From IMG/VR virus record IMGVR_UViG_3300025430_000077, positions 1 to 32,208 of that record: a stretch of DNA of 32,208 nt; one strand, written 5' to 3'. The DNA is from a virus. Of the stretch, positions 18,269 through 24,753 are shown piece by piece. The position numbers were made by a program, and so were the translations under genes. The notes under the pieces were generated by a model that saw only the letters and a program-made list of their open reading frames with translations, was not told the DNA's origin and did no database searches. Position 1 is the stretch's first letter. Each line of letters begins with the position of its first letter.

Positions 18269-18604
18269 ATGTGGAGTGAAATCGGAAATTGGGCGAACGT
18301 TGTGGTTCTCGGTGGCGGCGTCTTCGGTGTCATCGGTTGGTTTGTGGGTCACGCCATGAAGAAGCACGCCAGCGTCAAGCAAACCCGCAGGGAGACCGCC
18401 GAGGGCGTCGCGCAGATCAAGGCCATCGTGCCCGTCGTGCGCCAACTCGAGGCCGACGTTGAGTGGCTGCGCCAAATGACGGAGTACCAAAACGACACCC
18501 TGAGTCGGCTCATGCCAAACGGACGCAACACCGAGAACCCCGGCGACCTCGTCGCACGCATCGCCGAGCACCTCGGCATCATCCCGCCGAAGGACTCGAA
18601 ATGA
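18269..18604 (+). CDS. Membrane-anchored coiled-coil protein (lysis cassette)
   Basis: A 111-residue protein with one N-terminal membrane helix (about 8-29, WANVVVLGGGVFGVIGWFVG), then a charged helical region (VRQLEADVEWLRQMTEYQND) likely to form a coiled coil. ATG 18269 lies one base after the endolysin stop. Between two cell-wall hydrolases and two other membrane proteins, a holin or spanin-like accessory role is plausible. No family is recognised with certainty. Confidence 0.65.
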   Translation: MWSEIGNWANVVVLGGGVFGVIGWFVGHAMKKHASVKQTRRETAEGVAQIKAIVPVVRQLEADVEWLRQMTEYQNDTLSRLMPNGRNTENPGDLVARIAEHLGIIPPKDSK

Positions 18605-19119
18605 CCCACGCAGGCATCTACCCCGGCGACATCGTCTTCGCTCACTCCACCGGCTCCATCGCCAAGGCGATCCGTTTCGGCGAGGCGCTGCGAGGCGACA
18701 AGAACGAATCCAAGTGGAACCACGCAGCGATCATCGACCGGCCGCACCCAACGAGCGGCGATTGGTACGTCATCCAGGCTGAGGCTCGAGGCGTCACCAA
18801 CTTCCGTCTGCTGAGCGAAATTGCCCCTGGTGGCAAGACGCAGGTTCGCCCGTGTCCGCCGGAACTGAACCCAGAAGACGTGCTCAAATTTGCTCGCAGC
18901 CAAGTCGGGGCGAAGTACGGCTTCCTCACCATCGTGAGCTGCATCCTTGACGTCATCCTGCCCCGGAGCATCTGCCTTCGGCGTTCGATGACGTGGATCT
19001 GCTCCGGCCTCGTCACCGCAGCACTCATGTTCGCCGGCTGGGTGCCGGCGCAAGACCTCGCTGCCGACGACCTTTACTCCACCACACCCGCCCAATTAGC
19101 GGAGGAAGTTGCCCCGTGA
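18601..19119 (+). CDS. YiiX-like permuted papain-fold hydrolase
   Basis: A 172-residue protein with the order expected of the circularly permuted NlpC/P60 (YiiX/YebB-like) group: PGDIVFAHSTGSIAKAIRFG at the start, SKWNHAAIIDRP with His41, IQAEARGV with an acidic residue after it, then TWICSGLVTAAL with Cys134. Members act on amide or ester bonds, often lipid-linked. In a phage lysis cassette it may help breach the actinobacterial envelope beside the endolysin, but the substrate is unknown. A hydrophobic stretch at about 108-122 could touch membrane. ATG 18601 shares ATGA with the previous stop. Confidence 0.75.
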   Translation: MTHAGIYPGDIVFAHSTGSIAKAIRFGEALRGDKNESKWNHAAIIDRPHPTSGDWYVIQAEARGVTNFRLLSEIAPGGKTQVRPCPPELNPEDVLKFARSQVGAKYGFLTIVSCILDVILPRSICLRRSMTWICSGLVTAALMFAGWVPAQDLAADDLYSTTPAQLAEEVAP

Positions 19120-22297: not shown

Positions 22298-22313
22298 AGC
22301 GCCCTGAAAACTT

Positions 22314-22331
22314 GGTAAATGAGGACTTACC
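22314..22331 (+). promoter_or_regulatory. Candidate repressor operator O2 in attP region
   Basis: Inverted repeat GGTAA-N8-TTACC, preceded by TT as at 24524. It lies upstream of a -10-like TATAAA (22345-22350), so it would cover the -35 region of a rightward promoter reading through attP toward the integrase. The match to the site at the early promoter suggests one protein binds both. Confidence 0.55.
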
Positions 22332-22435: not shown

Positions 22436-22474
22436 TTGGACACATCTTGGACACATTCGCCTAAGTTGTGTCCA
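22436..22474 (+). repeat. Integrase arm-type repeats, right group
   Basis: TTGGACACATC (22436-22446) and TTGGACACATTC (22447-22458) repeat the left-arm element. An inverted copy of its centre, TGTGTCCA (22467-22474), overlaps the integrase start codon. The right group also overlaps the probable integrase promoter, so binding here could autoregulate the gene. Confidence 0.72.
22437..22467 (+). promoter_or_regulatory. Probable leaderless integrase promoter
   Basis: A -10-like TAAGTT (22462-22467) ends seven bases before the A of ATG 22474, so transcription would begin at the start codon. TGGACA (22437-22442) resembles a -35 with a long 19 bp spacer. There is no ribosome site before the integrase ATG, which supports leaderless initiation. 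Confidence 0.45.
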
Positions 22475-23643
22475 TGCGGGGACGAACAAAGGGTACAGGA
22501 TCGCTCGATGAGAGGCCAAAAGGCTCGGGTCGTTGGCGCCTGCGGATGAACTACGGCACCGATCCGGGCACCGGTAAGCGCCGAGTCAAGGTGTGGACCT
22601 TTGAGGCGAAGAACCGCCGAGAGGCCGAGCGCCAGGCAGCGCGCATCCTCGACGAGTTTGAATCCACCGTCAAGGTCATCCCGACAAAGCAGCTCGTCTC
22701 TCAGCTGCTCGAGGAGCACCTCGTCCTGCTCACCAGCCGCGGTCGGGCCCCTCGGTACCTAGACGACTTTGCCAAGGTGTCGCGCAACATCATCGGCCCC
22801 GCACTCGGGCACATCCCGGTCGATCAACTCACGGTGCGCGCCGTTGACCAGTTCATCACCGACCTGATCGACTCCGGGCGCTCGCCGGCCACGGTTCGTC
22901 GCTACTGCGCCGTGCTGCGCTCTGCGCTCGCTCAGGGCGTTCGGTGGGGTTGGCTCGAGCGAAGCCCCATGGACCGGGTTTCGATGCCTGAGGCGCCCAC
23001 ACGGGTCGTCTCAGCGCCAACCACGGAGCAAGTGCAGCGGTTTATCTCGGCGTGCCAGAGTCATTCCGAGCAGTTCGGGATGTTCGTGCTGCTGGCTGCG
23101 GTGACCGGGATGCGCCGAGGCGAACTCGCAGCCCTTCGTTGGAGCGACCTCGACGGGAACTGCCTCCACGTTCGAGCATCTGCCTACCGTGCTGGCCGGG
23201 AACACGGCATCAAAACCACCAAGACCGGCCGGGAGCGCGTCGTAGTCCTTGACCCGCTGATCCTTGAGCGGCTCGGCACCTACCGGGCGTTCATGCTTGA
23301 GCAGGCGGCGAACTGGCCAACGGGCCCGATTCAGGTGGTCGAGGATGGGTACATCTTCCCGAAGCGTGCCGACATGGCATCGCCGGCCAACATCGACACC
23401 TACTCGAGCGTCGCATCGAAGATCGCCAAGGACCTCGACCTACCGCAAATTCACCTGCACTCGCTCAGGCACTTCCACGCTACTGAACTCATCGCCGCCG
23501 GCCAAGACCCGGTCAACGCTGCGCAACGCCTCGGACATGCCAACCCAACAATGACGCTTCGGGTTTACGCCCACGCCGTAGCGGAGCGCCAGATCGAGGC
23601 GGCCAACATCGGTGCTCGAGTGATGCAGAAACTGAACCCCTAG
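22474..23643 (+). CDS. int: Tyrosine-type site-specific integrase
   Basis: Predicted integrase (389 aa) that inserts and, with an excisionase, removes the phage genome. N-terminal arm-binding region (about 5-60, GSGRWRLRMNYGTDPGTGKR), core-binding helices (75-165), then the catalytic domain with the full set: R214 in TGMRRGE, K250 in TTKTGRERV, H329 and R332 in HLHSLRH, H355 in LGHANP, and nucleophile Y365 in RVYAH. ATG 22474 is chosen over GTG 22468; neither has a ribosome site, and the -10 spacing favours a leaderless ATG. Its target is probably the tRNA-Ser gene half found just upstream. Confidence 0.96.
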   Translation: MRGRTKGTGSLDERPKGSGRWRLRMNYGTDPGTGKRRVKVWTFEAKNRREAERQAARILDEFESTVKVIPTKQLVSQLLEEHLVLLTSRGRAPRYLDDFAKVSRNIIGPALGHIPVDQLTVRAVDQFITDLIDSGRSPATVRRYCAVLRSALAQGVRWGWLERSPMDRVSMPEAPTRVVSAPTTEQVQRFISACQSHSEQFGMFVLLAAVTGMRRGELAALRWSDLDGNCLHVRASAYRAGREHGIKTTKTGRERVVVLDPLILERLGTYRAFMLEQAANWPTGPIQVVEDGYIFPKRADMASPANIDTYSSVASKIAKDLDLPQIHLHSLRHFHATELIAAGQDPVNAAQRLGHANPTMTLRVYAHAVAERQIEAANIGARVMQKLNP

Positions 23644-23705: not shown

Positions 23706-23948
23706 TCAACCGCATTCGTCGGCGTTGGCGGCGAAGCCTGCAACGTCAAGAAAGTTGTCCCGCTTGTGGGAGTTCGCTTCCCTGCTCATTTTCTGCAAGA
23801 TGTTGAGCGCGCAGACGTCGACGGCGGAGATTGGCACGTCGAGGTAGGCCGACCACATCGCAGCTGTGCGTTCATGGTTCTCACTTGGCGGTCCGTAAAA
23901 CTGCCCTCGGTCTTTCACGATCTGCGCTGCTTCGTCGAGGAGTGCCAT
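23706..23948 (-). CDS. DUF6378-like phage protein
   Basis: An 80-residue protein on the - strand, convergent with the integrase. LLDEAAQIVKDRGQFYGPPS, ENHERTAAMWSAYL and KRDNFLDVAGFAAN match the DUF6378 pattern seen in many phages; its function is unknown. ATG 23948 fits the family's usual start. A longer version starting near GTG 23984-23987, behind GAGGGG, adds about a dozen residues and cannot be excluded. The SOS-box-like site at 24017-24030 lies in its upstream region, so it may share SOS control with the ORF at 24043. Confidence 0.75.
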   Translation of the reverse strand: MALLDEAAQIVKDRGQFYGPPSENHERTAAMWSAYLDVPISAVDVCALNILQKMSREANSHKRDNFLDVAGFAANADECG

Positions 23949-24016
23949 GCCGGCAGTCTTGCAAAACCTTGTCACCACAACCCCTCTTCCAAAACGCGCA
24001 CGGTCGTGGAATGATG

Positions 24017-24030
24017 CGAACACTTGTTCG
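24017..24030 (+). promoter_or_regulatory. Candidate LexA (SOS) box
   Basis: CGAACACTTGTTCG is a palindrome matching the Gram-positive/actinobacterial LexA core CGAAC-N4-GTTCG exactly; one of the four preferred central bases differs from the fuller consensus. It sits between two divergent genes (DUF6378-like on -, 47-codon ORF on +) and ends 12 bases before the latter's start codon, where LexA would block expression. No other exact match was noticed in the window. Confidence 0.62.
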
Positions 24031-24042
24031 TGAAGGGGCGTT

Positions 24043-24186
24043 ATGCAGAAGCAATTGAAGACAGCAGAGGAGTTGAACCAAATGGCTGAGAGCCACCGCT
24101 GTCATGCCGAACGTCTCGACATCGCAGCTCAGATCATCCGGGGCGTCATGGCCCTACCGGACTCAGAAACTAAATCCCCTCGATGA
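24043..24186 (+). CDS. Small SOS-box-linked protein; candidate antirepressor
   Basis: A 47-residue charged, helical ORF (MQKQLKTAEELNQMAESHRC, then AERLDIAAQIIRGVM) starting at ATG 24043 behind AAGGGG. It is convergent with the repressor gene and overlaps its 3' end by 17 bp. The LexA-like box sits just upstream. No family is recognised. By position it could make a small antirepressor that binds the repressor, or its transcript could run antisense into the repressor gene. Being short, it could also be non-coding, with only the transcript mattering. Confidence 0.5.
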   Translation: MQKQLKTAEELNQMAESHRCHAERLDIAAQIIRGVMALPDSETKSPR

Positions 24187-24430
24187 CGAAGCGTGCCAGG
24201 TGCTCTCGCCGAACGGTCTCCGCGATCATCTCGGCGAAGGCTTCCTTCGTGATATGCAGATAGGCCATCAGGCCAAGCCAATGCTCGGTCTGCACCGGTA
24301 GCGCACCGCGCTCCCAGTTGCTGATGGTGGCGTTCGATACTCCCAGCTCGACGCCGGCCTGACGAGAGTTCTGACTGCGCGCGGTCCGCTCCGCTTTGAG
24401 TGCTTCGGCGAGGGTCGGCTGCTTCTCCAT
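24170..24430 (-). CDS. HTH repressor (probable immunity repressor), XRE type
   Basis: An 86-residue DNA-binding protein on the - strand. Residues 8-45 form an XRE/Cro-type helix-turn-helix (ALKAERTARSQNSRQAGVEL, then GVSNATISNWERGALP). It stands divergent to the excisionase-like gene, the usual place of a lysogeny repressor. The C-terminal 40 residues are helical and may form a dimer contact; no LexA/S24-type self-cleavage domain fits in this length. The - strand TACAAT nine bases before ATG 24430 implies a nearly leaderless message. A Cro-like role cannot be excluded, but no other repressor candidate is seen. Confidence 0.8.
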   Translation of the reverse strand: MEKQPTLAEALKAERTARSQNSRQAGVELGVSNATISNWERGALPVQTEHWLGLMAYLHITKEAFAEMIAETVRREHLARFVIEGI

Positions 24431-24513: not shown

Positions 24514-24543
24514 TTGACGAGTTGGTAAGAGTTCGCTTACCAT
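24514..24543 (+). promoter_or_regulatory. Early rightward promoter, leaderless
   Basis: TTGACG (24514-24519) and TACCAT (24538-24543) with an 18 bp spacer. The predicted first transcribed base, seven after the -10, is the A of ATG 24550, so the message would be leaderless. The spacer holds the operator-like inverted repeat. It probably drives the whole early operon. Confidence 0.68.
24524..24541 (+). promoter_or_regulatory. Candidate repressor operator O1
   Basis: Inverted repeat GGTAAG/CTTACC with a 6-base centre, lying within the spacer and overlapping the -10 of the early promoter. Bound repressor would block RNA polymerase. Its outer bases GGTAA-N8-TTACC recur at 22314-22331. Confidence 0.65.
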
Positions 24544-24549
24544 CTCGCC

Positions 24550-24753
24550 ATGCCCACCACACCTACCATCCGACGAACCGAACTTCCCGAACTGCTCACC
24601 ACCTCCGAGGCTGCGTCGTACCTGCGCCTCCATGTTGACACCGTGGTCAAGTCGCTTCGCACCGGCCGGCTCCGTGGCGTCAAGGTCGGCAACCGCTGGC
24701 TCATTCGTGCAGAAGACCTCGTCCAGTTCACGCAGCCCAAGGACGCAGCGTGA
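24550..24753 (+). CDS. Excisionase-like / MerR-type HTH protein
   Basis: A 67-residue protein with the excisionase-family winged helix: LLTTSEAASYLRLHVDTVVK, then LRTGRLRGVKVGNRWLIRAE and DLVQF. Such proteins bend attachment-site DNA to favour excision, or act as transcription regulators. It is the first gene of the rightward early operon, with its start at the predicted transcription start. An excisionase role fits induction of a prophage, but a Cro-like regulatory role is also possible. Confidence 0.78.
   Translation: MPTTPTIRRTELPELLTTSEAASYLRLHVDTVVKSLRTGRLRGVKVGNRWLIRAEDLVQFTQPKDAA

Follow-up and report, generated by a model that had tools for sequence, protein, structure and literature searches.

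The virus record IMGVR_UViG_3300025430_000077 of IMG/VR, whose full 32,208 bases are referred to here as the window, encodes a terminase, a portal, a major head protein, tail genes and a replication initiator, together with a tyrosine integrase, an HTH_17/excisionase-like gene and RecT, and the integrase identifies it as a temperate phage. Positions 23,706 to 24,430 hold a DUF6378 gene on the minus strand, a putative LexA (SOS) box, a small open reading frame (ORF) of 47 codons on the plus strand and, converging on it from the minus strand, the gene of an 86-amino-acid (aa) helix-turn-helix (HTH) repressor. This arrangement is considered here as a candidate switch that would couple prophage induction to DNA damage in the host.

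The record contains a single exact CGAAC-N4-GTTCG, the box CGAACACTTGTTCG at 24017-24030, which overlaps the expected transcription start of the small gene. It was recovered at the coordinates given by an earlier interpretation made from the letters alone (the sequence-only reading), with 12 bases separating it from the small-ORF ATG at 24043. Chance would supply 0.04 exact sites per window under base composition and ~0.1 under a dinucleotide model. Sites with two or fewer mismatches occur at the chance level (26 seen, 26.0 expected), and thus only the exact site was counted. The core fits tCGAAC-N4-GNNCGa, the LexA motif of Streptomyces venezuelae from chromatin immunoprecipitation (PMC9380542), a consensus that may not be that of the host, and the match supports a putative canonical LexA box of the actinobacterial type. 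The box forms the end of a promoter block conserved among relatives (23986-24030, plus strand; CTTCCAAAACGCGCACGGTCGTGGAATGAT precedes the box), in which a -35 hexamer TTCCAA (23987-23992) and a -10 hexamer AATGAT (24010-24015) are proposed with a 17-bp spacer, both chosen by eye and below the threshold of the consensus scan. A ribosome-binding site, GAAGGGG, follows at 24032-24038.

The small ORF (24043-24186) had been described as running head-on into the repressor gene, and the two genes do meet tail to tail with an overlap of 17 bp. Its 47-aa product, the proposed antirepressor, has no match in Pfam, PHROGs, NCBIfam or the PDB sequences, known antirepressor families included. AlphaFold, in which the repressor and the small protein were modelled as separate chains, predicts a single helix over residues 2-37 (mean predicted local distance difference test score, pLDDT, of 88) from an alignment that held two sequences only, and a Foldseek search with this helix returned no match.

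The repressor gene (24170-24430) encodes a protein for which Pfam reports HTH domains only (HTH_31), and AlphaFold models it (mean pLDDT 91.9) as five helices that end in a long one (62-85) and leave no room for a peptidase domain. No S24 peptidase domain was found elsewhere in the record, so that the absence of a LexA/S24-type peptidase noted in the sequence-only reading holds up. The missing domain supports the view that the modelled repressor cannot answer RecA by self-cleavage. Its Foldseek neighbours, at modest E values of ~3e-3 to 6e-3, are the DNA-binding N-domain of P22 c2 and ClgR. HipB appears among the HTH matches of the repressor, and a toxin-antitoxin reading was rejected as these matches cover the HTH alone. 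To the right, an early promoter, TTGACG-N18-TACCAT (24514-24543, plus strand; 9/12 in the consensus scan), precedes an HTH_17/excisionase-like early regulator (24550-24753, plus strand; Pfam PF12728, E=2.6e-12; PHROG excisionase families). Within this promoter lies the palindrome TGGTAA-N8-TTACCA (24523-24542), the proposed repressor operator, and a second operator-like site, TGGTAA-N8-TTACC, is present at 22313-22331, upstream of the integrase.

Three related loci, L002, L004 and L005, provide the comparison on which the interpretation leans. The promoter block and box are identical to the window in the close relative L002 (45/45 positions; this locus shares its record with L003, L006 and L033), where the ORF also stays open, so the same box and ORF do recur in a related phage. 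L004 carries the same box with a different small ORF, and in both loci the exact CGAAC-N4-GTTCG is again single and at the corresponding place. Nucleotide identity between L004 and the window is high in DUF6378 (92%) and RecT (97%) and falls to 51% in the small ORF, 48% in the repressor (37-40% at the amino acid level) and 52% in the early regulator; the integrases also differ. Between DUF6378 and this exchanged cassette, the 23986-24030 block is kept at 44 of 45 positions, followed by a ribosome-binding site (as TAGGGG), the same 12 bp from box to ATG and an ORF of 58 codons that converges on the repressor with an overlap of 78 bp. The place matching the proposed operator reads TGGTAC-N8-GTACCA in L004, and the two palindromes are likely the operators of two different repressors. 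By sequence, then, the exchange that took in the ORF, repressor, operator and early regulator in L004 spared the promoter, the box and the translation start. This links the box with the small ORF, and that ORF in turn with the repressor.

The more distant L005 (RecT 59-62%) has a small protein of ~104 aa whose first 36 residues are homologous to that of L004 (BLOSUM score 67; reached by 0 of 5000 shuffles). Its gene also converges on the repressor gene, with a 4-bp overlap, and the repressor is 48% identical to that of L004. Indirect support for a pairing of the small protein with the repressor comes from the adjacency and convergence of the two genes in three phages, from their joint difference between the window and L004, and from the small-protein family of L004 and L005, which travels with a repressor family. 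The small proteins of the window, L004 and L005 all carry a hydrophobic heptad over ~29 residues, which is reached by ~1.4%, 1.7% and 5% of shuffles, respectively; this shared pattern is suggestive of a coiled helix and is not proof of kinship among them. Profile scans with the repressors and small proteins of L004 and L005 yielded no further true relatives, and the conserved promoter pattern recovered only the two known relatives among viral contigs and nothing convincing among named phages. L012-L032, viral loci related through RecT, are without this cassette, and L009-L011 were rejected as relatives, matching the repressor merely as generic HTH proteins.

Taken together, these observations make it probable that a small antirepressor repressed by LexA is paired with a non-cleavable repressor, so that DNA damage would induce the prophage. 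In this scheme the short HTH repressor would silence the early promoter through the palindrome at 24523-24542, while host LexA, bound at 24017-24030 and covering the start of a promoter dedicated to the 47-aa gene, would keep that gene silent. Upon DNA damage, self-cleavage of LexA would allow the 47-aa gene to be expressed, and its helical product would bind the repressor and take it off the operator, possibly by contacting the C-terminal helix (62-85) that probably serves dimerisation. The SOS-antirepressor logic put forward in the sequence-only reading thus gains from a repressor that lacks the cleaving domain, a canonical box, and a promoter/box block that is tied to the small ORF and persists among relatives even where ORF and repressor have been replaced; the comparison with L004, which was not available to that reading, strengthens its main idea. 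A further proposal, more tentative, is that in this phage group the damage input (the SOS promoter) and the target cassette (antirepressor, repressor, operator and early regulator) are units that can be exchanged independently, with a minimal, one-helix antirepressor whose gene runs head-on towards that of the repressor. If so, a phage can swap immunity yet keep its trigger, or swap the trigger yet keep the antirepressor, as might apply to L005, where a palindrome that is not a LexA box precedes the homologous small gene.

Several observations weigh against the switch. Of the ten codons of the small ORF that changed between the window and L002, eight alter the residue, as expected without selection on the protein (P=0.79 for 8 or fewer), compared with 1 of 11 in the repressor and 0 of 10 in DUF6378; the sample of ten changed codons is small, and a specificity factor, too, would be expected to change fast. 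By chance alone, an ATG would be followed by an equally long stretch free of stop codons with a probability of ~0.18. No homologue of the 47-aa protein was detected outside L002, and kinship with the small proteins of L004 and L005 was rejected, there being no detectable relation. The LexA motif of the host may differ from the S. venezuelae consensus. Finally, CGAAC-N4-GTTCG is absent from L005. The trigger of L005 may differ from that of the window, given the missing LexA box and the palindrome GCAATGTTCAGAACATTGC in its place. This perfect 19-bp palindrome (L005 4423-4441) lies upstream of the small gene and may be the operator of another trigger.

The lack of purifying selection on the small ORF between the window and L002 is the main reason for keeping an explanation in which the active product is RNA, with damage-induced antisense read-through lowering repressor synthesis by interference or antisense pairing. 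The convergence of the genes in all three phages and the lack of a terminator-like site on the plus strand between the small ORF and the repressor would suit such a mechanism. It is unlikely, as L004 keeps the ribosome-binding site and ATG at an equal distance despite the exchanged ORF, the length of the overlap varies (17, 78 and 4 bp in the window, L004 and L005), the small proteins of L004 and L005 are conserved at the protein level and halted synthesis would not quickly clear the stable repressor already present. Where the sequence-only reading had left the choice between a peptide and an antisense transcript, the peptide is now favoured: it is the translation start that is kept in L004, and not the extent of the overlap. 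A less probable alternative is that the LexA site works while the small protein has some other role after damage (host takeover, division inhibition or nuclease inhibition), with prophage induction triggered otherwise. Phage genes under SOS control need not be antirepressors, and the small protein has no homology to any known one; such a role would leave unaccounted for the exchange of the small gene en bloc with the repressor and early regulator behind a retained promoter, and the adjacency of repressor and small gene in three phages.

The box could also serve the divergent DUF6378 gene (23706-23948, minus strand; Pfam PF19905, E=9e-21), or both genes, making the small ORF secondary. The gene begins at 23948, which is also where the interval of the sequence-only reading starts, and that reading left it unmentioned. 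The position of the box between two divergent genes and the conservation of DUF6378, in which none of the ten codon changes alters an amino acid, are compatible with this assignment. Between DUF6378 and the promoter block, however, the spacers of the window and L004 share only 36% identity and differ by an indel, and the box therefore lies at no fixed distance from DUF6378, against the fixed 12 bp to the small ORF; the conserved stretch is also on the side expected for a rightward promoter, and this assignment is very improbable. The last alternative, a coincidental palindrome next to an ORF that is no gene, draws on the chance-level count of inexact sites; it is hardly credible for an exact site with an expectation of 0.04-0.1 per window that sits in one of few intergenic gaps and survives the replacement of its flank in L004. 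The preferred reading remains a probable LexA-controlled antirepressor protein directed at the neighbouring repressor.

An actinobacterial host is likely for the window phage, since its terminase is closest, among named phages, to those of Pontimonas phage phiPsal1 (43%) and Streptomyces phages; the label of actinophage is plausible on this basis. Scans of bacterial genomes with RecT and RecT profiles found no prophage relative. The genome of phiPsal1 (L043, MG835450.1) holds three exact CGAAC-N4-GTTCG sites (8040, 8212 and 8245) within ~220 bp, located where a glycosyltransferase gene ends and inside a methyltransferase gene. The tyrosine integrase of the window (22468-23643, plus strand; Pfam PF00589, E=3e-22) lies to the left of DUF6378. 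Beside the integrase of L004 (3177-3219) and L005 (4231-4273), a 43-bp tRNA-like segment, GGGGCYGTAGCTCAATGGTTAGAGCAGGGGACTCATAAGGG, is 98% identical between the two and is likely their attachment site core; no copy of it was found in the window, which has a different integrase. Two annotations in the record deserve mention. PHROGs labels the DUF6378 families phosphofructokinase, which is improbable for an 80-aa protein, and the window at 18463-19119, after the tail genes, weakly matches a PHROG that carries the annotation enoyl-CoA hydratase/carnitine racemase-like.

Temperate actinobacterial phages often carry short repressors without a self-cleaving domain. To our knowledge, the sensing of host damage by such phages is little documented, and no such case for actinophages was found in the open-access literature. 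Placing an antirepressor under LexA, inside the immunity region, would be a simple answer to how phages with short repressors sense damage, and the exchange of cassettes behind a fixed promoter would show how immunity can change without loss of the damage trigger. The arrangement also offers a searchable signature: a box, 12 bp, a small ORF and a convergent short repressor.

Among known types of induction switch, the window resembles neither a lambda CI-type system, as Pfam, the AlphaFold model and the record-wide search found no C-terminal S24 peptidase in the repressor, nor the ImmA/ImmR type of ICEBs1, as no match to an M78 metalloprotease (PF06114) is present in the record. It shares with the Gifsy/186-type systems a repressor that lacks a self-cleaving S24 domain and, at the level of sequence, a small gene whose promoter is covered by a LexA box; L002 and L004 both preserve this box along with the promoter and the spacing to the start codon. 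Tum of coliphage 186 and the antirepressor of N15 are under LexA/SOS control and act on target repressors without a self-cleaving domain. The window would likewise set an SOS-controlled antirepressor against a repressor that does not cleave itself, whereas the genome positions and proteins differ and the 47-aa product matches no named family. In the Gifsy-1/2/3 prophages of Salmonella, the small antirepressors GfoA, GftA and GfhA, under direct control by LexA, remove repressors that are not cleaved (PMC3121763). A small protein under LexA would similarly remove an uncleaved repressor in the window and tie induction to SOS, but its gene lies within the immunity region, where it converges on and overlaps the repressor gene, and no sequence relation was found. 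Silpe et al., who also cite Tum and the N15 antirepressor, describe small proteins that inactivate master repressors independently of SOS, driven by a phage transcription factor, and these transcription factor-small ORF (TF-smORF) modules of Vibrio and other linear plasmid phages have dissimilar sequences and one logic (PMC10432266). The window would share with them the inactivation of a repressor by a small protein, with modules that differ in sequence, and departs from them in having a LexA box as its input. L005, where the small protein is homologous to that of L004 and a different palindrome stands instead of the box, may be nearer to the TF-smORF type. As no sequence relation to any of these systems was found, the window is classed as working like them and not as a member of their families, and the best reading is that it resembles Gifsy and 186 in its logic and not through homology.
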